Shown: positions 13,474-26,026 of the stretch, piece after piece
Layout: each line of letters starts with the position of its first letter
Position numbering within the stretch: the stretch's first letter is position 1
Assembly (NCBI RefSeq): GCF_016097405.1
Contig: NZ_JAEHGD010000001.1
Coordinates: 1,794,110 to 1,852,418 of the forward strand
DNA: 58,309 nt
Origin: a methane-oxidizing endosymbiont of Gigantopelta aegis
GTDB taxonomy: Bacteria > Pseudomonadota > Gammaproteobacteria > Methylococcales > Methylomonadaceae
Direction of reading: 5' to 3'
The notes under the pieces: model-generated
Databases searched by the model: none
What the model was told of the DNA's origin: nothing
Seen by the model: only the letters and a program-made list of their open reading frames with translations
Position numbers and translations under genes: made by a program

Positions 13474-14583
13474 CCCAGCATTATAAGGAAACAGGAAACG
13501 AAATCGCCCACGAATCTATTCAAGAAGGGCTGCAACAGCTTTTTGCTGATGTTTTAAAGATAGACCAACGCTTCTCGACGTCATGAAAAAAACGATAGCT
13601 TATTGTCAGCGCTTTAGCTAAAAGGCGTTCTACCGGGCAGGCCTAGAAACACAGCTTTGCTGTTTTTTGTAGCCGTTCATTGGGTGGATAGATGGCAGCG
13701 CCTTTTTTTGCGGTCTGACATTGTTTATCTTTATTACCAATAAAGCCATAGGCATCACTCAGCATGATGAACATACCGAGTTCAGGATTTTGTTTTATTG
13801 CTTTCTCGGCCCAATTGATAAACAAAGGGATTTTGCTTGTATCATGATGCTCAATACTTTGATAGAGCAAGGATTGCATGAGTAGTTTTTCTGCAAAGCG
13901 ATTAAAATAAAAATCATGCAGGGCAAATTGTAAGTTTCCGTCCGTTGCATACATATATTTAAAAATTTCCCGCTCAGCCTTTTCAATATGTATCAGCATG
14001 GCGCTTCCGGCTAGTCCTAGTACAAGGATAAAAGCCTGGAGAGACGTTAATGCCATTTTGCTGATTTTGAGCGGAACTGTCTTTAGTTGATGCCTGAAAA
14101 CGAGATAAATCAAAAACAGCCATAAAAACCAATGTACCGATGAAATATAAAAGGGCAGTTCAACCTGGGTGTGTAAGGTAATAGGGAATAACATGGCCAT
14201 ATAGGCACCTCCCCGCGAAAACCCACATTGATAAAGTGCTTTACACACAACGATTAAAATCACCATCAGTCCGGCAACGGCAACCAGCCCCCCCTCAATA
14301 AACCAGAATAAAATCTCATTATGCGGATGACTGGTTGTTGCAGATGTGACGGCGGCATCGGGGTGCTGTGCTAGAAATTTAGCTTTTTGTTCAACCCAGA
14401 CACGTGGAAAGCTACCAATGCCATAACCGAAGAGGGGTTTGTCTTTAATTAAATTAAGGCCGATGGCATACATGGTTTGTCGGGCTGAGGCGAACTCCCC
14501 TTCCGTCATTTTCTGGGTTTTATCCAGCGTACGAGAAAAACCGGATTGTCCTGTCATTCCACTTGCTAAGGAAGCTAATAGTA

Positions 14584-15433
14584 GGGGCTGTTGCCGTTTT
14601 GAAAATCCCCCTTGAAATTCAATAACTCCGCCACATAGATTGTTTATTTTGACTCAAAAACAAGCAAACTATGCCGCGACAACTGCTTACGGATGAACTT
14701 TGGGAGAAACTGAAGATAATTATGTTGAAAATGGGAATTTATGACAAACCTTGTCTTCGAAAACAGTCGAAGGTATTTTTTATCGCTTGCGAGTAGGTTG
14801 TCCCTGGAGAGATTTACCCACGGCTTTTGGTAATTGGAATGCGGTATATAAACGATTCAATGACTGGTCTCGTAAAGAAAAACTGATGGGTATTTTTAAC
14901 GCCTTGGTTGTTGATCCAGACCTGGAATGGGAATTTATTGATGGGAGTATTGTGAAAGCACATCAGCATAGTAGTGGTGCGGCCTGTGAACAAGAAACAG
15001 CGATAGGAAATCTGTCGCCGGGAACACCAGTAAAATTCATATGGCCGTTGATGCCTGTGGTCTTCCTATTCATTTCTCAGTGACAGGCGGCGAAGTTCAT
15101 GACTGTAAAGAAGCACCGAAATTAGTTGCAGAGCTCCCAAAAGGTGACTATATAGTTGCTGACAGAGGCTATGACAGTGAAGCATTACGTCTTCAAATTA
15201 AAGACAAAGGGGCTGTTCCTGTTATCCCAAGAAAAAAGAATTCAACTCGGGGAAATGATGAAATGGATTGGTGTCTCTACAAATATCGCCATCTCGTTGA
15301 AAATGTGTTTGCAAGACTTAAGCATTTCAGAGCGATCGCCACGCGATATGACAAACTCAAACGAAATTTTGAAGGCTCTATCGCTCTGGCTTGCGCCTTT
15401 TTATGGTTACCTATGTGAAATGGCAACAGCCCC
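14584..15433 (+). mobile_element. IS5-family (IS427-like) insertion sequence, copy 2
   Basis: Element of 850 bp with ends GGGGCTGTTGCC and a TA target duplication (14582-14583 and 15434-15435). Excising it with one TA exactly restores the interrupted glycosyltransferase frame, so the duplication is genuine and is 2 bp. Confidence 0.95.
14671..15418 (+). pseudogene. IS5-family transposase, frameshifted (copy 2)
   Basis: Same DDE transposase as copy 1. It has the correct T6 and A6 runs but lost one A in the CTTCGAAAACAG run (A4 instead of A5) and one G at ATAGGAAATC (GG instead of GGG), so the frame breaks twice before FIHM-AVDACG. Confidence 0.88.
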
Positions 15434-16235
15434 TAGAACTGTGATAAATTTTTTATGCTTGGAAAGTTGTTTATGCCTGCTAGACAACATCAATATAGTT
15501 GCGACAATTAATGAGAGTAACCCCATCCGTGAACCGGACGATACAATCACAAAAACCAGTAAGGCTGATCCAATCACCATGCCACCCTTTATCCAGACCG
15601 GAATGCCGGAAAAAGATGGACGACTGATTAAGTACAGCCCAATAATAAAACCAGATGTTAAAAAGCTTGCCTCTACATTGATTTGCTGAAATACACCAAT
15701 GGGAAGATGATTCCCATCAAATGGAATCCATTTATGTAATATAGAAATATCTGTAATTTGCGCGATACCGATCAATGCGTGAAGCACTGATGCCAGAAAT
15801 AAGATATAGAGTAAATAATCTATCTTCCCACTTTTGAGCTGTGTTTGCAGCAGAGCAAATAAAAAAACAAATCCGCCTAGAATATAGAGCTGACGAAAAA
15901 ACCATATTTCTGCTTGAGGTATATTGGAGAACAGGCCCGATATAATTAATATTACCGGGAATATTAAACAATACAAGAAGGCTGGGTTATATTGAATGCT
16001 TCCTTGTCTGAAACGATAAATCAGTGTAAAGCAGCTAAAAAACACAGACACTAGCCAAACTGCAATGTTAAAAGGCACTGCTAGCCCCAGTCCTCCGATA
16101 TTAGGGTGCATATAAAAGGGGGCAACAAGAAAAAGAATAATTAAGCTAATAAAAGGGGCGTCTAGGTTTGTTATTTTCTGCACTCGTAGTTCCTTTTTTA
16201 ATTATTAGCATAGTGTAGCTGAAATTCACGACCCA

Positions 16236-16293: not shown

Positions 16294-16740
16294 CTATTTA
16301 CAATAACCTTTTGAATAACAAGTAGCTGATGAATTTACTGTCCATGTTACAGCGCCTGAAGCATATGTTCCATCTAGAATATATGTTTCACCTTTGAGAC
16401 CTTTTTCTGCCTTGCTAGCTGAGCCGACAGCAGTTGCAGTAATTTTGAATGTAGGGTCTGACCACTTAACAGATACTTTGTTGACGTATTGGCCATTTGT
16501 CGCATTTGTGGCAGCTGTTGTTACAGCAGGGTCAGAAGAACATGAGCTTAAATCTCCTTCCGTTTGCGCACAGACTTCAGCGGCTGATTTAACAGCTGCT
16601 GTCGCCAGAACCACTTCAGAGAATTTTGATTTTGCTGTGTATTGTTGATAAGCCGGGATAGCAATTGAAGCCAGGATGCCAATAATGGCAACGACGATCA
16701 TTAATTCGATTAATGTAAAACCTTGTTGTGTATTTTTCAT
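16294..16740 (-). CDS. pilA: Type IV major pilin paralogue 1
   Basis: Prepilin of 148 residues. The short leader MKNTQQG is cleaved by PilD before Phe, followed by the class IVa helix [20 protein letters not shown] with Glu5 of the mature protein. Two cysteine pairs are present ([12 protein letters not shown] and the C-terminal CYSKGYC), the latter forming the receptor-type loop. The N-terminal half is near-identical to paralogue 2, while the middle differs. Its own sigma-54 promoter lies at 16799-16814 and a terminator follows. Confidence 0.95.
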
Positions 16741-16911: not shown

Positions 16912-17352
16912 CTATTTACAATAGCCTTTGTTATAACAGCTTGAATTGACAGAATCTAAGGTCCAATGCACCGCACCGGAGTTGTAACTGGCATTAAGAA
17001 TATAGGTTTCACCCTCTAAGCCATTATTATTGATTGCTATTGCTGTAATCTTGTCGCCATCTGCGTTGATTGTAACAGTACTGACATATTGACCATTAGC
17101 AGCACTGGCGGCAGTAGCTTTAGGTATCGGGGCATCTGTGCTTTCATTGCCACAGGAGGCTAAACCGCCGGCAGCCTGGGCACAGATTTCAATAGATGTT
17201 TTGAGTGCAGTAGTGGCGGTAATGACTTCTGAGAACTTGGCTTTAGCCGTGTATTGTTGATAGGCCGGTATAGCGATGGCGGCCAGGATACCGATAATAG
17301 CCACCACAATCATCAATTCGATTAACGTAAACCCTTGGTGTGTTTTTTTCAT
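16912..17352 (-). CDS. pilA: Type IV major pilin paralogue 2
   Basis: Prepilin of 146 residues: leader MKKTHQG, then [20 protein letters not shown] and [20 protein letters not shown]. The C-terminus is CYNKGYC, the same disulfide loop as paralogue 1, with another Cys pair at [12 protein letters not shown]. It sits upstream of paralogue 1 in tandem, 171 bp apart, with its own sigma-54 promoter. I cannot tell from sequence which of the two is the main fibre subunit. Confidence 0.95.
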
Positions 17353-17473: not shown

Positions 17474-18235
17474 TTATGTGTCTTTCCGCCCTAACAGGTG
17501 CACATAACGCCCCATATCCCGATAAGTGGGCTTACGGCAGTAGCGGTATTCTAATTGGAATAATTGGTTTTTGTCGGTTTGTGCCAGGGCGTCGGGAGGG
17601 AGGTAGTCATGGAATATGCGGATGCCGGTGTGCTGGTGGATGCTAAACCCCATCTCGGCCAGGGACTCCTGCACGATGTGCGGATATTGAGGATTGGGTG
17701 GCGTTAGTCTGTGGCCTTTGCCGATGTAGCTGTCATTGAGTAGATTGGGCAGCCGCCAGCCGCCTTTTAGCGCATTGCTGTAAACCATGGCGTTGCGGTT
17801 ATAAAACAGCAGCGATAAATAGCCTCCGGGTTTGACTTTGTTGGCGATGGTTTTTAACGTCAGCAAAGGGTCGGCCAGCCATTCTAGTACGGCATGGAAC
17901 ATGACCAGGTCAAATTCGCCGATGTCGGCGGCCAGAGATTGTGCCGAGCGATGATGAAATTCGGCGTGTAGACCGGCCTGTTCAAACCGATCTTGTGCCC
18001 GCGCCAGCATTTTTTTGGAAATATCGCATAGCAGCAGGCGATGGCCATTTTCTGCAAACCATTGGCTGATTTGGGCGAAACCACAACCGGCATCCCAGAT
18101 GTCAAGCGGCGGGCCTTGCTGTAAAACGGATAGGTCTTCTTTTAACAACTTGAGTCGCCATTGGCCTTTGTCTGTGGCATAGACTTTTCGGTCAAAACGG
18201 TCGATCAGGCTGTCGAAATTGCGGTCTTGTTTCAT
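17474..18235 (-). CDS. cmoM: CmoM-like SAM-dependent methyltransferase
   Basis: Protein of 253 residues closely patterned on CmoM (SmtA), which methylates 5-carboxymethoxyuridine at the tRNA wobble base. Shared blocks are the opening [21 protein letters not shown] motif [33 protein letters not shown] and the late [16 protein letters not shown]. The start overlaps the stop of the upstream dehydrogenase gene by 4 bases, so it is translated as the last gene of the carrier-protein operon. A role in that pathway instead of tRNA modification is possible but not suggested by its sequence. Confidence 0.82.
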
Positions 18236-19314
18236 GGGTGTTCGGGGGGTAAGCGATAGCCTTCACCGGTGCCGAGTAGGGCGGCGATGATGTTTTTCTG
18301 GATTTCCGAGCTACCGGAAAACAGGCGACTGGCGAGGGCGTCGCTAGTCCAGCGCAGAAAGGGTTGCTCGCCAAGCAGGGCGGCGCTGCCGATAATTTGC
18401 ACGGCATCGAGGCTGGAGGCGACAAAACTTTCGGCACCATACAGCTTGGTTTGGGCGCTGGCTAGGGTGATGCGCTGTTGGCTGTCTTTTAGGTGTGCGC
18501 ATTTTTCTAGCCATAGGTTCAAGGTATCTAACCTGAGTTTCATATCGGCAATTTTATGACTAATGGCCTGGTTTTTACCGAGATGGCTGCCGTTTATGCG
18601 GCGTTTGCGGCTATGGTCGATGACGCATTTGAGTTGTTCGGCCATGATGCCGCTGATGCCGGCGAATATAAAGGCGCGTTCCAGTTCCAGCGCCTGCTGA
18701 ATGAGCAGGTTACCGGCGCCGGCTTTACCGAGTAGGCGCTGCTCAGGAATAAGGCAGTTTTTGAGTATGACATCACCCATGGTCGCGCTTTTGCAGCCTT
18801 CAACATTGGGGCCGTGACAAAATTCGGCACCGTGGTCGTCCTTTTCTACAATAAATGCGCTCAGGCGGCTATCGAGCCGAGCGTAAACAATCAGCATGTC
18901 GGCTATCGGCGTATTGGTAATAAAGCGTTTATGGCCATTGAGTAGAAAGCCGCTATCGGTGCGCTGTGCGTTCAAGGTTAGCCGAGTCAGGTCTGAGCCG
19001 GCTTGCGGTTCGGTAATGGCATGGCCGCCGATCCATTGGCCAGTCAGCAATTTTTCAAAATAGTGACGTTGGGTATCGCTGGCGTGATGAAGTAGCGGAA
19101 ATAGGCTACCCCACAGATGGGCGTTGAGCGATAAAATCAGGCCGGTATCGAGGCTGGTCTGGCCCAATTGCCGGTGTATCTGGACTAAATCCTGAAAATT
19201 ATCGCCTAGCCCGCCTGCATCACGGGCAATGGCATGTTTGAACAAGTTTTGTTGACCCAGAGTTTGTAGGCGTTGGCGGGTGGCTTTCAAGTCTGTGCTG
19301 GGTGTGTGCATCAT
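18232..19314 (-). CDS. Acyl-CoA dehydrogenase-fold oxidase, probable prolyl-carrier-protein dehydrogenase
   Basis: FAD enzyme of 360 residues with acyl-CoA dehydrogenase motifs ITEPQAGSDLTRL, GFLLNGHKRFITNTPIADML and the C-terminal LFSGSSEIQKNIIAALLG. The position of the usual catalytic Glu (EGT in MCAD) is Ser here (FSGS). From memory, PigA/PltE-type prolyl-S-carrier oxidases also read FSG at this point and share ITNAPIAD. I therefore infer oxidation of a carrier-bound prolyl group to pyrrole-2-carboxyl, not fatty-acid oxidation. It overlaps the adenylating enzyme by 4 bases (ATGA). The alternative is an ordinary short-chain acyl-CoA dehydrogenase. Confidence 0.78.
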   Translation of the reverse strand: MMHTPSTDLKATRQRLQTLGQQNLFKHAIARDAGGLGDNFQDLVQIHRQLGQTSLDTGLILSLNAHLWGSLFPLLHHASDTQRHYFEKLLTGQWIGGHAITEPQAGSDLTRLTLNAQRTDSGFLLNGHKRFITNTPIADMLIVYARLDSRLSAFIVEKDDHGAEFCHGPNVEGCKSATMGDVILKNCLIPEQRLLGKAGAGNLLIQQALELERAFIFAGISGIMAEQLKCVIDHSRKRRINGSHLGKNQAISHKIADMKLRLDTLNLWLEKCAHLKDSQQRITLASAQTKLYGAESFVASSLDAVQIIGSAALLGEQPFLRWTSDALASRLFSGSSEIQKNIIAALLGTGEGYRLPPEHP

Positions 19315-20726
19315 TTAAATAGTTCGGTGAGTGTGGAATAATCAATTTTGCCGCTGTTTAAAGACGGCAGACGGTCGACAATTTTAATCTGGCTGGGTAG
19401 CATGTAGGCGGGCAGGCGTTTGCGCAAGGGCTGTATGATTTCAGTCAGTGCTGTGTTTTGTGATAACACCAGTGCCGCAGCCGGGCGTTGGCCGGCGGTT
19501 GGGTCGGCAATGCCAATTACGGCGCATTGGGCGACATGTGGATGACGAAGAATGGCCGCTTCAATTTCGGCCGGTTCCACGCGAAAGCCTGAGCATTTTA
19601 ACATTCGATCCAAGCGGCCGTGATAGTCATATTCGCCGCAGGCGTTTAATGACACTTTGTCGCCGGTGGGATAATGGCCCGCTTTTAATTTGGGGGCGTT
19701 CAGCTTGCCTTGTTGCCAGTAGCCGGAAAAATTATTGGCACTTTTTACCCAGAGTTCGCTATTGTCCGGCGCGATTTTTAAATCAGCATTTGCGGCGGCG
19801 ATGCCGATGGGAATGGGGCGGTTATCGCTTAAGCGTGTGCGATCCACCGGCCAGTAACAGCAGACATTGGTTTCAGTTGGGCCGTAGAGATTATAAAACG
19901 CGGTTTGGGGCAATAAGTCAGTTAGCGTTTTTAAGGTGGCAGTGGGGAAGACTTCGCCAGCAAACAGAATTTGCCGCAATTGCGGCAGCGGCGTGTTGGC
20001 TAGGTCGCCTTTTAAGACTAGAAAAGACAATAATGAGGGTACGGTGTACCAGGTACTGATGGCCTGTTTAGCTAGCCATTGGCTTAGGCGGCTGGGCGAC
20101 AGGGTTAATGCTTGAGGGACAAAGCTGACCGTTGCGCCACGACTTAAGCTAGAGAACAGGTCAAACACGCTCAAATCAAAATGAAACGGTGCGAGCGAGG
20201 CGACCTTATCGGTCGAAGACAAGGTGAAAGTGTCTCCGGCCCAGTCGGCAAAATTTAGCATAGCGCGATGGCTGAGAGCGACGCCTTTAGGATGGCCCGT
20301 TGAGCCGGAGGTATAAAGAATGGCGGCAATCGATTCGGGGTCGGCCGGATAAAGAGCGTGTTGTTGTGCCGGCAGTTGGAACGGCAGCCAGGTGATGCTG
20401 TTAGGTTGCCAGTCGGGCTTGTCACCGAATCCAATCACGGCAGTAGGCTGGGCGTCTTCGAGGATATAGCGCAAGCGGGTAGCAGGGTTTTTGAGATCCA
20501 ACGGAAGATAGCACGCTCCAGCATAGACAATGGCCAGAATAGCACTAGCGGCATCAACGCCGCGATCCATAGCGACGGCAATGCGTTGGCCAGGTTTGAA
20601 CAAGGTGCTTAAATGACGCAGGTGCTGTTCTAATTCGGCATAACTGAGTTGGCTTTTCGCATCTTGCAGCGCAATCTTATTTGGGGTTTTATGGCATTGT
20701 TGGGTAATAGCTTCCAGCAAAGACAT
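19311..20726 (-). CDS. Stand-alone amino-acid adenylating enzyme, predicted proline-specific
   Basis: AMP-forming ligase of 471 residues that would load an amino acid onto the neighbouring carrier protein. Core motifs: LYTSGSTGHPKG (A3), FHFDLSVFDLFSSLSRGA (A4), NLYGPTETNVCCYW (A5), YPTGDKV (A7), GRLDRMLKCSGFRVEPAEIE (A8) and the catalytic Lys in NSGKIDY (A10). Aligning by hand to GrsA, I read the specificity code as D-L-F-Y-L-A-L-V-C, almost the proline code I recall for PltF and PigI (DLLYLALVC). A DltA-like D-alanine ligase is the main alternative. It lies 4 bases after the acyltransferase gene. Confidence 0.82.
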   Translation of the reverse strand: MSLLEAITQQCHKTPNKIALQDAKSQLSYAELEQHLRHLSTLFKPGQRIAVAMDRGVDAASAILAIVYAGACYLPLDLKNPATRLRYILEDAQPTAVIGFGDKPDWQPNSITWLPFQLPAQQHALYPADPESIAAILYTSGSTGHPKGVALSHRAMLNFADWAGDTFTLSSTDKVASLAPFHFDLSVFDLFSSLSRGATVSFVPQALTLSPSRLSQWLAKQAISTWYTVPSLLSFLVLKGDLANTPLPQLRQILFAGEVFPTATLKTLTDLLPQTAFYNLYGPTETNVCCYWPVDRTRLSDNRPIPIGIAAANADLKIAPDNSELWVKSANNFSGYWQQGKLNAPKLKAGHYPTGDKVSLNACGEYDYHGRLDRMLKCSGFRVEPAEIEAAILRHPHVAQCAVIGIADPTAGQRPAAALVLSQNTALTEIIQPLRKRLPAYMLPSQIKIVDRLPSLNSGKIDYSTLTELFK

Positions 20727-20729
20727 CGG

Positions 20730-22058
20730 CTATTGATCCAGTAATTCAGCGACAAGCAGTTGATGCAAGGTATCTATTTGCGCTGGCGATACCGCCGGTT
20801 TGACAAAGTTGTAGCTTAAATTTAAGCGGTTTTGATAAATGCCGGTTAAAAAAGCGAGCGAAGGCGGTGATGTGACCTGGCAGATGTGGAACATGGTGTC
20901 AATTTTTGCACCGGGAAAGCCATTATCCGGTAGGTTTATGTTACCAATATCTGAAAACCAGAATGAGCTACGTTCTTCGCCGGAGCCATAAGAAAGACGC
21001 AAAGTTTTTCCGTATTCTTCTAGCGATAACCAACTGCCCGCCCACATCAGCGGCAAAAAGGCATAATCGAGTTGTTGGCGTATCACCTGTTGGTTTTGCT
21101 GTTTTAAATAAGTGAATAATTGATTCCGGTCTTTTACGATGTCACGCGGAGCCTGGGCAAACAAGGCGCAGACATGGTTGCCGGTGACGGGTGTCAGCGC
21201 TCGCTGTTTGCGTAGATTGAAGGCGTAGGGGGTGCAATAGGCCTCACCTTCAGCGGTTGGGTTAAGTCGCTCTAAAGCCCGCATCAGACAGCCGATGTAA
21301 TACAGGCTGGTGCCGGTTAGGCCGCAGGTTTTACGGGATAAGGCTTGGATGGTTTTAGTTTGTTTTTCGGTTAGTCGGTGAATGGCAAAGTCCAATTGTT
21401 GGGCCGGTTTTTTGATTGGAAACGGCTGAATGCTTTTGAGGTTATCGAGCCGGTCAATATAGCGTTTACCTTTCAATAACAGGCCTAGTTTTTGCCACCA
21501 GCAGAATTTGTCTAGTTGCAGATTAACCAGCGGTCGGCTGGCGGGTTGCCCAAATTTCTGACGCGTGCTGTCATCTGCGGCACAGAGATATTGCAAAATC
21601 AAATCCGCACCCCGGGCATCGCAAAAAGGGTGTATCCAGCGACAGAAAAAGGTGTGTTGGCTGGGGCTTGAAATGAGATGAAAGGAAATCGGTTGCAGGG
21701 TTTCTCTGGGCTTGCATTCGTTGACCAGCTCAAGCAGTGTGTGGTGATGGAATACCGACTCATCTTTGGCATTGTCTGTTAATTTATGCTGGCTTAAAAA
21801 CGTCGGTGCTTGGTCGGTTTTACACCAATAAAAGCGCCGTCCGCGTTGTTCCAGACGGGCGTTGGCAAGCGGAAATTGCTGAAAAAAACACCGAATACGA
21901 TGGTTTAATTCTTCGATATTTGGGAATTGATCGAGCTCCAGGGCAAAGCAGCCATAGCTGCCAGCTAGGCCATCATTACGGATTTCTTGATCCATCGCTA
22001 AGGTAAAACTGTCGGCTGGGTTCAGGCCTTCGATAATCGCTGCGTTGTTCTGACTCAT
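20730..22058 (-). CDS. Stand-alone condensation-domain-like acyltransferase
   Basis: Protein of 442 residues with the CoA-dependent acyltransferase/NRPS condensation fold. The active-site motif reads WIHPFCDARGAD: relative to HHxxxDG the first His is Ile and the Gly is Ala, but the catalytic second His and the Asp remain. Other fold cues are VTGNHVCALFAQ and a late WFSDIGNIN block resembling the DFGWG-side strand. ATG 22058 overlaps the carrier-protein stop by 4 bases. I infer that it passes the carrier-bound acyl group to an unknown amine or alcohol; the acceptor is not evident. Confidence 0.72.
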   Translation of the reverse strand: MSQNNAAIIEGLNPADSFTLAMDQEIRNDGLAGSYGCFALELDQFPNIEELNHRIRCFFQQFPLANARLEQRGRRFYWCKTDQAPTFLSQHKLTDNAKDESVFHHHTLLELVNECKPRETLQPISFHLISSPSQHTFFCRWIHPFCDARGADLILQYLCAADDSTRQKFGQPASRPLVNLQLDKFCWWQKLGLLLKGKRYIDRLDNLKSIQPFPIKKPAQQLDFAIHRLTEKQTKTIQALSRKTCGLTGTSLYYIGCLMRALERLNPTAEGEAYCTPYAFNLRKQRALTPVTGNHVCALFAQAPRDIVKDRNQLFTYLKQQNQQVIRQQLDYAFLPLMWAGSWLSLEEYGKTLRLSYGSGEERSSFWFSDIGNINLPDNGFPGAKIDTMFHICQVTSPPSLAFLTGIYQNRLNLSYNFVKPAVSPAQIDTLHQLLVAELLDQ

Positions 22059-22297
22059 GGTTTTTTGTGCCGCAAAATCCAACTTTCCAGGGCATTGAAG
22101 CTTTTGACGTTATCCGGCTCAATTTCGTTATCCGGTAATGTGACGCCAAACTGGTCCTCGATAAACATAATCAAGCGCATGATGCCCATGCTGTCTAAAC
22201 CGGCTTCAAGCAAATCGTCATCATCGGAAAATTGGGCGGGATTATCGACAAAAACCAGTTCTCGAAAAATAAAATCACGTATTTTTTGTTTTATCAT
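22055..22297 (-). CDS. Acyl/peptidyl carrier protein
   Basis: Free-standing carrier protein of 80 residues. The phosphopantetheine attachment site is Ser36 in LEAGLDSMGIMRL, and the length and acidic helix II (MFIEDQFGVTLPDNEIEPDN) are typical. It is the first gene of a five-gene minus-strand operon whose members overlap or nearly abut, followed by an acyltransferase, an adenylating enzyme and an oxidase. It probably carries the activated amino acid. It is not the fatty-acid AcpP, which has a different surround (DSLD) and genomic context. Confidence 0.9.
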   Translation of the reverse strand: MIKQKIRDFIFRELVFVDNPAQFSDDDDLLEAGLDSMGIMRLIMFIEDQFGVTLPDNEIEPDNVKSFNALESWILRHKKP

Positions 22298-22513: not shown

Positions 22514-24421
22514 ATGTACCCATTTCTCCGTTCTAAAATCTCACAGCTTTATTTTCAACCGGCTCCGGCGAGTGGTGTTGGTTTGTTCAGGCTGTTGTTT
22601 GGCTTGGTGACCTTGCAAGAGGTTTTGTTTCTGCTCTATTTCAATCATCTCATTTTCGACCCCATACCTTATATGGATGTCGAATTTCCGATGATCCCGT
22701 TTTTTCTGTGCCTTTGGGCCATTGTCGCAGCCTGTGTGGTATTGGGCTATCGTAGTCAGCCGATGATTATCGCCAATTATCTATTCTGGGTTGTGTTTGT
22801 TCATTTTACGCCGATGCAGCGAGATTTTGATGGTGGATTTGATTTGTTCATGATTGGCGTCAATTTTTTTCTGATTTTTATGCCGATTGATAAGGCGTTT
22901 TCGCTGGATCAATTACGCAAAAAACTGGCGATGCCATTTAAACATTATTCGGAGTATCCACAGGAGACTGTTTCGCGTTTGGCTTATGTGTTGCCGGTTA
23001 CGATTTGCTTGGGCTTTTTATATTTCGATTCGGTTGTGCATAAGATGTTTGCCGAGCATTGGCGTAACGGTTTGGGCGCCTGGTTGCCGTCATCTATGCC
23101 GTATTACGTTTCTGCGTTGGATATGCAATGGCTGCTTGATCAGGAATGGCTGCAAAAACTGATTGGCTATACCATTATTCTGTTTCAGTTCAGCTTTGTT
23201 TTTCTGGTGCATTATCGCCTTTTACGACCACTTTATTTTTTTATCGGTGTGGGTTTGCATTTGGGGATTACACTGACGTTCAATATTTACCCTTTTGGAT
23301 TGGGGATGTTGATTTGCTATGTGTTGGTTGCGCCATTTTTCTGGTACCGGGCTTTATCGGCGTGGTTGACGGCAAAAACACCGCGATTGATAGTGTTTTA
23401 TGATGAGCTATGTCCCTTATGCAATCGTACCGTTTTGATTTTGAATCATTTCGATGTGTTTTCCTGTGTCGATTTTAAGGGTGCGCAAAGCTGGGCTAAG
23501 CATTACCCTGAATTGAAAGCGATTGAGGCAGAACAGCTACTAAAAGACCTGTATGCCTTAGATACACAGGGAAAGCTTTATGCCGGAGTCGATACTTATG
23601 CGCGTATTCTAATCGCCATGCGTTATACCGCACCTTTCGGCTGGCTGCTGTTGGCGCCGGGTGTTCACGTGCTAGCCTCTATGATATATCGCCGTATTGC
23701 GGATAATCGGCTTCGGGTCGATTGCGGGGAAGGCTGTGAAATCGCTACTTCTAAACCGGGTCTAACGTTTTATGATCGGTGGTTTACATGTTCTGAGCCA
23801 AAACAAGCGCGGCGTGTCATCAATCGTTTGTCTAAAATATTGATACTGATTTTCTTGCTGCAATTGAATACAACAATCCATTATGGCCTGCTGTATCGGT
23901 TGCATGTCGATTTGCAGCAATCGCCGGTGACGCGCCTTTTGTCTGGCATCAGCAATAATTTGATCATGTTGTCGCAGGCGTTTTTAGGGATTACGCCGCA
24001 TGCATTGTATTTGCATGACCATTTTGCCGGCTATGAGCATATTATTGCGATTACCTATCAAAAGGAAGGGGAAACTGAGGAGCATTGGTTGCCGTTTGTT
24101 GACGAACATGGCCGAATTCTGGCGCCAAACTGGGGTCGCGTGCATTCGATGTGGGCCAATATTGCGGTGACGCCGAATATCGATAACCAGCGTTTGAAAA
24201 AATTTATCATGAAGGTGACGGCTTTCTGGGGTATCAAATCCGGTCTTGATTTAGACAAGACGGTTTTTCATATCAAAATGAAAAAAATATCATCACCCGT
24301 AGTCTGGCGTAAAGGCTTGTTGAAACAAAACTTTTCAGGCGATTGGCGGGAGATTGGCACGGCTAAATGGCAGGGTAGGGAGGTTGACATTGTTTTGCCA
24401 AAAAATATCAATGTTTTGTAA
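22514..24421 (+). CDS. HTTM domain membrane protein fused to a DCC (DUF393) thiol-redox domain
   Basis: Protein of 635 residues. Residues 1-290 form an HTTM-type bundle (related to vitamin-K-dependent gamma-carboxylase) with about eight helices: GLFRLLFGLVTLQEVLF, VHFTPMQRDFDGGFDLFMIGVNF, FDSVVHKMFAEHWRNG. A DCC domain follows with the thioredoxin-like motif D297-E-L-C300-P-L-C303 (LIVFYDELCPLCNRT) and VDTYARILIAMRY. After another helix (~435-455) comes a hydrophilic tail of ~170 residues. It is divergent from the carrier-protein operon. Function unknown; the CPLC motif suggests thiol-disulfide chemistry coupled to a membrane domain. Confidence 0.83.
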   Translation: MYPFLRSKISQLYFQPAPASGVGLFRLLFGLVTLQEVLFLLYFNHLIFDPIPYMDVEFPMIPFFLCLWAIVAACVVLGYRSQPMIIANYLFWVVFVHFTPMQRDFDGGFDLFMIGVNFFLIFMPIDKAFSLDQLRKKLAMPFKHYSEYPQETVSRLAYVLPVTICLGFLYFDSVVHKMFAEHWRNGLGAWLPSSMPYYVSALDMQWLLDQEWLQKLIGYTIILFQFSFVFLVHYRLLRPLYFFIGVGLHLGITLTFNIYPFGLGMLICYVLVAPFFWYRALSAWLTAKTPRLIVFYDELCPLCNRTVLILNHFDVFSCVDFKGAQSWAKHYPELKAIEAEQLLKDLYALDTQGKLYAGVDTYARILIAMRYTAPFGWLLLAPGVHVLASMIYRRIADNRLRVDCGEGCEIATSKPGLTFYDRWFTCSEPKQARRVINRLSKILILIFLLQLNTTIHYGLLYRLHVDLQQSPVTRLLSGISNNLIMLSQAFLGITPHALYLHDHFAGYEHIIAITYQKEGETEEHWLPFVDEHGRILAPNWGRVHSMWANIAVTPNIDNQRLKKFIMKVTAFWGIKSGLDLDKTVFHIKMKKISSPVVWRKGLLKQNFSGDWREIGTAKWQGREVDIVLPKNINVL

Positions 24422-24760: not shown

Positions 24761-24778
24761 ATAAGTAGATCTGAATTA

Positions 24779-25631
24779 GGGGCTGTTGCCGTTTTGAAAA
24801 TCCCCCTTGAAATTCAATAACTCCGCCACATAGATTGTTTATTTTGACTCAAAAACAAGCAAACTATGCCGCGACAACTGCTTACGGATGAACTTTGGGA
24901 GAAACTGAAGATAATTATGTTGAAAATGGGAATTTATGACAAACCTTGTCTTCGAAAAACAGTCGAAGGTATTTTTATCGCTTGCGAGTAGGTTGTCCCT
25001 GGAGAGATTTACCCACGGCTTTTGGTAATTGGAATGCGGTATATAAACGATTCAATGACTGGTCTCGTAAAGAAAAACTGATGGGTATTTTTAACGCCTT
25101 GGTTGTTGATCCAGACCTGGAATGGGAATTTATTGATGGGAGTATTGTGAAAGCACATCAGCATAGTAGTGGTGCGGCCTGTGAACAAGAAACAGCGATA
25201 GGGAAATCTGTCGCCGGGAACACCAGTAAAATTCATATGGCCGTTGATGCCTGTGGTCTTCCTATTCATTTCTCAGTGACAGGCGGCGAAGTTCATGACT
25301 GTAAAGAAGCACCGAAATTAGTTGCAGAGCTCCCAAAAGGTGACTATATAGTTGCTGACAGAGGCTATGACAGTGAAGCATTACGTCTTCAAATTAAAGA
25401 CAAAGGGGCTGTTCCTGTTATCCCAAGAAAAAAAAGAATTCAACTCGGGGAAATGATGAAATGGATTGGTGTCTCTACAAATATCGCCATCTCGTTGAAA
25501 ATGTGTTTGCAAGACTTAAGCATTTCAGAGCGATCGCCACGCGATATGACAAACTCAAACGAAATTTTGAAGGCTCTATCGCTCTGGCTTGCGCCTTTTT
25601 ATGGTTACCTATGTGAAATGGCAACAGCCCC
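24779..25631 (+). mobile_element. IS5-family (IS427-like) insertion sequence, copy 3
   Basis: Element of 853 bp with the same terminal repeats and TA on both sides (24777-24778 and 25632-25633). It inserted into the stop codon of the neighbouring minus-strand gene: the former TAA is now TAG, whose G is the complement of the last IS base. Confidence 0.94.
24866..25616 (+). pseudogene. IS5-family transposase, frameshifted (copy 3)
   Basis: DDE transposase with T5 instead of T6 near codon 37, giving an early stop after GIFIACE, and A8 instead of A6 after IPRK, which throws off the C-terminal part that contains the catalytic Glu (LVENVFARL). Confidence 0.88.
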
Positions 25632-26026
25632 TATTGTTTTTTCATAAAATAATACAAATAGGTGCATTTCAATGTCATTTCGTTATCGGTAAGTTCGTAA
25701 AAAGAACAGGTTTCGTATTTCTCACGCCCTGGTGCCGTTTGTCTTTTTAATTTGCCATCTTCAATCGAGTATTTAAGTTTGATGCTCATCATCCCTGTAC
25801 GACCGCTGACGACGTCTTTACCTTCGACAGTCATTGTATTGTCAGATTTAAATTCCCAAATAGAGTCTTGTGCGCGTTTTTCTTTGTGCAGTGCGGGTGC
25901 TGCCGCATAAACATGCCATTTTCCTACAATTTTAGAATTATCTTCCAGTTTGACTTCGGCATTGGCTGTGCTAGAGAGTACGGCGAAGGCGAGTAAAGTG
26001 GTTAGGTGTTTTATTGTTTTTTTCAT
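25631..26026 (-). CDS. Small exported protein, lipocalin-like
   Basis: Protein of 131 residues with a signal peptide (MKKTIKHLTTLLAFAVLSST, cleaved after ANA). The mature part reads like a small beta-barrel stress or lipocalin-like domain: IVGKWHVYAAAP, SIWEFKSDNTMTVEG, MSIKLKYSIEDGKLKRQ, NEMTLKCTYLYYF. Two cysteines could pair. Function unknown. The IS insertion falls in its stop codon but leaves the protein unchanged; its original terminator is now 870 bp further away. Confidence 0.75.
   Translation of the reverse strand: MKKTIKHLTTLLAFAVLSSTANAEVKLEDNSKIVGKWHVYAAAPALHKEKRAQDSIWEFKSDNTMTVEGKDVVSGRTGMMSIKLKYSIEDGKLKRQTAPGREKYETCSFYELTDNEMTLKCTYLYYFMKKQ

Follow-up and report, generated by a model that had tools for sequence, protein, structure and literature searches.

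The window, that is the whole stretch of 58,309 bases analysed here (G000:C2:1794110-1852418), is part of the 2.93 Mb genome (G000, the own genome in the following) of a methane-oxidizing endosymbiont of Gigantopelta aegis. Our subject is a compact run of minus-strand genes within it, predicted to convert proline into carrier-bound pyrrole and referred to below as the module. An earlier reading of this DNA from its letters (the original prediction) had placed four such genes here, and all four were confirmed by open reading frames (ORFs), by Pfam and, for the condensation-like protein, by a fold match. They are listed below together with the ORF that ends the run.

22055-22297, minus strand: carrier protein, 80 amino acids (aa), Ser36 in GLDSMGIMRL (Pfam PF00550, 38.9 bits)
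20730-22058, minus strand: condensation-fold acyltransferase-like protein (C-like), 442 aa, H143-x3-D147 (AlphaFold2 model mb9d4d184ce1f)
19311-20726, minus strand: stand-alone adenylation enzyme (A), predicted L-proline:carrier ligase, 471 aa (pocket DLFYLALVCK; PltF match)
18232-19314, minus strand: acyl-CoA-dehydrogenase-fold oxidase, predicted prolyl-carrier oxidase, 360 aa, base Glu212 (PDB and NCBIfam matches)
17474-18235, minus strand: CmoM-like tRNA methyltransferase, last ORF of the run (NCBIfam CmoM, 226 bits, cut-off 366)

The carrier stop codon and the ATG of the C-like gene overlap by 4 nt, a gap of 3 nt separates the C-like and A genes, and A overlaps the oxidase by 4 nt. Among the operon proteins Pfam detected PP-binding, AMP-binding along with AMP-binding_C, and acyl-CoA dehydrogenase domains. 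A first search round gave a C-like match in 23 of the first 61 genomes, and 19 orthologue loci (L028-L046) were then fetched. As carrier and C-like genes were kept at all 19 of them, the operon arrangement is not due to chance. The A gene was found at 17 of these loci (absent from L033 and L034) and the oxidase at 15 (absent from L033-L036); in the GC-rich loci L040, L042, L043 and L045 some small or overlapping genes escaped ORF calling. A condensation-like gene of 89% identity was present in a metagenome-assembled genome of an uncultured Methylococcaceae. One scan of contigs yielded L027 as its sole locus, which agrees with the L028 contig in length and in position of the match. Searching plasmids with the C-like protein gave zero matches, and with the A protein nothing beyond matches below 60%.

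The pocket of A, with positions found by motif and mapped by what we take to be the PheA numbering, reads D-LFYLALVC-K over its ten positions. Sixteen of the 19 aligned sequences (window included) have the identical code, and the remaining three differ by F for the second L (two sequences) or by I and F (one). According to the accessible text of PMC3874040, stand-alone L-proline enzymes have the pocket L(L/F)YLALVC and modular ones VQ(Y/F)IAHVV, and A carries the stand-alone type, as do PltF, PigI, RedM and CloN4. In the PDB the best stand-alone adenylating enzyme listed was the L-proline--carrier ligase 6o6e_B (PltF) with 253.5 bits, compared with 168.5 bits for the best D-alanyl carrier ligase (DltA-type) chain, so that A is closer to PltF than to DltA. 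Chains of nonribosomal peptide synthetases (NRPS) outscored PltF in total; they are long and have more than one matching stretch each. A D-alanyl ligase of the DltA type was ruled out by bit score and pocket. For the carrier, peptidyl carrier proteins led the PDB matches, PltL among them, and Ser36 was invariant in all 20 aligned sequences (window included).

The top PDB matches of the oxidase, 4irn and 5zw0, are dehydrogenases of prolyl residues on acyl or peptidyl carrier proteins, and next to them stands 6cxt_B, which carries the label butyryl-CoA dehydrogenase and which we take to be a prolyl oxidase. In the single-sequence search 4irn, 5zw0 and 6cxt_B scored 199, 177 and 172 bits and the enzyme ranked after them 147, and in the profile search 290, 235 and 270 bits versus 216 for other acyl-CoA dehydrogenases (ACADs). 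All 16 aligned sequences have Glu212, whose counterpart in 5zw0 is residue 244, a position occupied by Ala in 6af6. This base Glu lies in an LELER stretch and there is none at the position of medium-chain acyl-CoA dehydrogenase. PigA (268 bits, cut-off 500) and RedW (235.8 bits, cut-off 650) were the best NCBIfam matches; as both scores fall under the curated cut-offs, the oxidase is, judged by score, a relative of these equivalogs and not a member. A fatty acyl-CoA dehydrogenase was ruled out, as the prolyl-carrier oxidases rank above those listed.

Neither of the two outcomes that the original prediction had set against itself occurred: A scored higher with PltF than with the DltA type (253 versus 168 bits), and the oxidase had prolyl-carrier oxidases ranked ahead of the fatty acyl-CoA dehydrogenases listed. 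With a proline pocket code, PltF as nearest ligase and prolyl-carrier oxidases as nearest oxidases, the predicted route from proline to pyrrole by carrier loading and oxidation is well supported at the level of sequence.

The C-like protein had no Pfam or NCBIfam match, and its sequence found nothing credible in the PDB (one match at E 0.088, otherwise repeat-protein or other spurious matches), hence the fold assignment builds on the predicted model. The AlphaFold2 model has a mean predicted local distance difference test score of 90.3, shows the two-lobed condensation fold and aligns with condensation-domain structures along nearly its full extent. Its structural matches TlmII, PapA5, WS/DGAT and AzeD share this fold and are likewise stand-alone, but differ in sequence, with 9-14% identity in the rows listed. 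All 19 aligned sequences (window included) have H143 and D147 of the HxxxD motif. The motif reads H-P-x-x-D-A without a preceding His, and thus departs from the full HHxxxDG; HxxxD is present in free-standing condensation-fold relatives, and VibH and SgcC5 are free-standing enzymes of this fold. PF00668 gave no match for the window protein and matched two of the 19 members, at best with E 7.2e-5. As far as a model can tell, a stand-alone condensation-fold enzyme is borne out by the fold and by the catalytic His and Asp.

The original prediction also held that the set lacks any polyketide synthase (PKS) or halogenase, which is true of the local stretch only, since a type II PKS core of aryl polyene (APE) type, with a halogenase-like flavoprotein, is encoded elsewhere in the genome. 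This core of ketosynthase (KS), ketoreductase (KR), dehydratase (DH), KS and flavoprotein genes was found at G000:C2:1035145-1039909. Its DH matches the Pfam family ApeP-like, and the second KS has 6qsp_A and 7f28_B as best PDB matches, of which we take 6qsp to be an APE ketosynthase pair. The flavoprotein gene comes first in the core, and its product is Trp_halogenase-like and has a WxWxIP motif. As the best PDB match of the core flavoprotein, 3nix ('flavoprotein/dehydrogenase', 361 bits), is ahead of the halogenases (at most 159 bits), we call it halogenase-like and no more. Ape-type C, carrier, G, H/I and J genes were located at C2:257.8-262.6 kb, with an ApeH-like ligase at C2:260556, and an aromatic ammonia-lyase (by Pfam) and a thioesterase-like gene at about C2:800 kb. 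A 76%-identical ammonia-lyase gene is present in genome G003, and the gene was recognised in G001 and G015 by its opening residues only. The stretch from ApeC to ApeJ is duplicated in the own genome (L053, C2:249501-269500; L054, C2:521501-541500), the second copy being interrupted.

In other genomes the two sets of genes come together. At six loci (L029-L033 and L072) genes for a FAD-dependent halogenase-like protein, KS, ApeP-like DH, KR and KS run divergently from the module and adjoin it; all five were called in L029, L031, L033 and L072, with KR missed in L030 and L032 and DH in L030. APE clusters also carry a second cassette (L048, L050, L051, L063 and L066) of a carrier, a remote C-like paralogue (19% identical, HHxxxDA), a PF12831 flavoprotein and an acyl-CoA-ligase-like gene, for example at L051:2810-7047.

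We searched 201 genomes of the order of the window, taken as Methylococcales, for C-like, ApeP and two ApeH families, counting C-like orthologues at E below 1e-100, ApeP over its cut-off and ApeH at thresholds of our own setting (E up to 1e-60 for the first family and up to 1e-40 for the second). The C-like orthologue was found in 60 genomes (C+), leaving 141 without it (C-); six further genomes, which had just a weak match or the remote paralogue, were left out of the C+ count. ApeP was detected in 89 genomes, the first ApeH family in 71 and the second in 52. ApeH of either family was present in 59 of the 60 C+ genomes (absent from G069) versus 64 of 141 C- genomes (Fisher p 5e-15), and ApeP in 46 of 60 versus 43 of 141 (Fisher p 1e-9), both tests taking related genomes as independent. 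The first ApeH family is associated by itself (46/60 C+ versus 25/141 C-), the second is not (13/60 versus 39/141, p 0.86), and the APE link is therefore based on the first family and the union of the two. Among the C+ genomes, to which these counts are confined, A was found in 59 and the oxidase in 58, hence A, oxidase and C-like travel together. C-like and an APE marker lie on one contig in 39 of the 60, and at most 26 kb apart in 30 of these 39; with ApeP alone as marker, 24 of 31 same-contig cases fall within 26 kb, 13 of them within 5 kb. The proposal of a minimal stand-alone pathway does not agree with this distribution, as the module is found almost only in APE-bearing genomes and, where position can be judged, usually beside APE genes.

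The association extends beyond the order. In 369 genomes sampled from the class we found a single additional strong C-like match (G264) as well as three weak ones; at the G264 locus (L085) the module again neighbours ApeH-like and KS genes. The phylum sample of 378 genomes gave one weak match and six strong ones, the latter all belonging to one family of another class. Four of these six loci have KR, KS or halogenase-like APE genes alongside, and two an ApeD-like acyltransferase only. At four of the six a Trp_halogenase-like flavoprotein with WxWxIP directly follows the oxidase (L095:13800-14963, L097, L099 and L100); Pfam was run on two of these four, and the best NCBIfam match was CmlS, far below its cut-off. 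Owing to this gene order we speculate that the pyrrole may be halogenated in this family.

Our preferred interpretation, with a probability of roughly 0.5, is that the genes form a proline-to-pyrrole accessory module of the APE pathway, in which the condensation-fold enzyme transfers pyrrole-2-carboxyl to an APE-lipid acceptor. First, A would activate L-proline and attach it to the dedicated carrier at Ser36. The flavin oxidase would then take four electrons to give pyrrole-2-carboxyl-S-carrier, and the condensation-fold enzyme, with the His of HxxxD as base, would move the acyl group from the carrier to an acceptor with a hydroxyl or an amine. This acceptor would belong to APE lipid synthesis, as head group, glycan or lipid anchor. 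We derive the first two steps from the pocket, the catalytic residues and the nearest characterised relatives, and the APE link from co-occurrence and co-location, while transfer and acceptor are what we infer beyond these; for the transfer step by the condensation-fold enzyme the chances are about one in two.

Several observations weigh against the accessory role. The core of the own genome is 777 kb from the module, and eight others of the nine same-contig exceptions are at distances of at least 38 kb; a further 21 of the 60 C+ genomes give no same-contig information. Fourteen of the 60 have no ApeP match over the cut-off, of which 13 have ApeH, and 43 ApeP-bearing genomes are without the module, which is thus dispensable for APE. 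The Fisher tests assume independence of related genomes, the second ApeH family is not associated by itself, and in one of the ApeH families (f4) the weaker matches may represent other ligases. The ApeH-like ligase frame of the own genome has 449 aa compared with mostly 551-599 in relatives, and the shortened frame together with the interrupted second copy suggests that the APE pathway may be impaired in this strain. The ammonia-lyase scores below every curated equivalog cut-off, with histidine ammonia-lyase as top score. Finally, the best structural match of the C-like protein is AzeD, which is titled a dehydratase (14% identity), and the condensation fold by itself is hence no proof of acyl transfer.

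Pyrrole-2-carboxyl might instead be an alternative starter that primes the APE ketosynthase, which would yield pyrrolyl polyenes, and the C-like enzyme would then pass the pyrrolyl moiety on to an APE carrier or aid its acceptance by the ketosynthase. In pyoluteorin and prodigiosin synthesis PKS enzymes are supplied by pyrrolyl carriers, and known precedents mostly use the pyrrolyl-carrier as a building block; in addition, the module is divergent from and adjoins the flavoprotein-KS-DH-KR-KS core in several genera, and the APE core is also found beside the second, different carrier/ligase cassette. We still consider a starter somewhat unlikely, and prefer transfer because the ligase of the aryl-starter type is kept in 59 of 60 C+ genomes, because the two cassettes each pair their own carrier with their own condensation enzyme, and because a trans-acting ketosynthase would not require a condensation-fold enzyme. 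As the aryl-starter route (ApeH, and the ammonia-lyase in the genomes inspected) is kept along with the module, the pyrrole seems to be an addition and not a replaced starter. With the two ApeH families together covering nearly all C+ genomes, and the ammonia-lyase found in G000, G003, G001 and G015 as described, the exchange of starters is ranked lower.

Another explanation is that the condensation-fold protein acts in the manner of a dehydratase, an epimerase or a shuttle on a carrier-bound proline derivative, where the oxidase may stop at dehydroproline. The oxidation by AnaB reportedly stops there, dehydroproline being mentioned in the title of a 2010 paper, and the structural match to AzeD would fit a dehydratase-like role. 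We find this distinctly unlikely: the identity to AzeD is low, the Z gap by itself is not decisive for function, all 19 aligned sequences keep the base His and the Asp, and the proline substrate has no hydroxyl to eliminate. The accessible text of PMC10880069 states nothing on the mechanism of AzeD.

Least probable, and very doubtful in our view, is the self-contained pathway of the original prediction with no tie to a PKS, where a small pyrrole amide or ester would be set free by the C-like enzyme, since the module, solitary as it is in the window and at least 38 kb from the nearest same-contig marker in eight other C+ genomes, is almost completely nested in APE-bearing genomes (59/60) and clustered with APE genes in 30 of 39 same-contig cases, with the association recurring in another class, even if free-standing condensation enzymes such as VibH act on small acceptors.

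Some further features of the region were observed. The CmoM-like gene, absent from the list of the original prediction, overlaps the oxidase by 4 nt. It has a clear match near the module in L028 and L029 only (among L028-L046) and resembles a tRNA-modification enzyme, hence it is probably a passenger of the operon. Just downstream of the operon are tandem genes that by eye are type IV pilin-like (16294-16740 and 16912-17352). In the flanks an insertion sequence occurs in two copies (14582-15435 and 24777-25633; 99.4% identical over 858 bp), the first of which sits between two ORFs whose counterparts adjoin in L028, a candidate pilin glycosylation ligase. The divergent gene at 22514-24421 encodes a DCC1-like thiol oxidoreductase domain and has a sub-threshold HTTM match.

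The module shares with PltF/PltL/PltE, PigI/PigG/PigA, RedM/RedO/RedW and CloN4/N5/N3 the proline pocket code, a small carrier and an ACAD-fold oxidase with the same base Glu, these being the sets of pyoluteorin, prodiginine and clorobiocin synthesis. It differs from them by the condensation-fold enzyme encoded between carrier and ligase, by an oxidase under the PigA and RedW cut-offs, and by its tie to an APE core instead of the PKS/NRPS partners of those pathways. Taken together, the module genomes have in common with APE clusters (E. coli/Xenorhabdus ape, xanthomonadin and flexirubin) a KS, a chain-length-factor-like KS, ApeP, KR and ApeH, and likewise ApeC, ApeD, ApeG, carriers, LolA and a resistance-nodulation-division transporter, with ape gene roles following the accessible text of PMC8253772. 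The E. coli ape gene list given there is without a proline ligase, a prolyl oxidase or a condensation-fold enzyme.

APE clusters have been described as dominant in Methylococcaceae (PMC11964084) and as present in all analysed Methylobacter (PMC12810054); the accessible text of both papers makes no mention of the module, and the word pyrrole is absent from the main text of the former. A search of the open literature, with most subscription journals outside its scope, gave no proline- or pyrrole-bearing APE cluster among the matches listed. The parts are thus of known kinds, and it appears that their combination and its conservation across two classes are undescribed. We consider the odds slightly better than even that an APE of undescribed kind, in which a proline-derived pyrrole serves as cap or starter, is produced by means of a dedicated condensation-fold enzyme in methanotrophs and in one family from another proteobacterial class. 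For E. coli the accessible text of PMC8253772 proposes that two acyltransferases attach APE to the outer membrane, and states that the anchor molecule is unknown. If the suggested role is true, the module puts a nitrogen heterocycle into the APE pathway, which is a specific and testable chemical prediction, and the C-like enzyme and its acceptor would offer a genetic handle on the unsolved chemistry of APE attachment.

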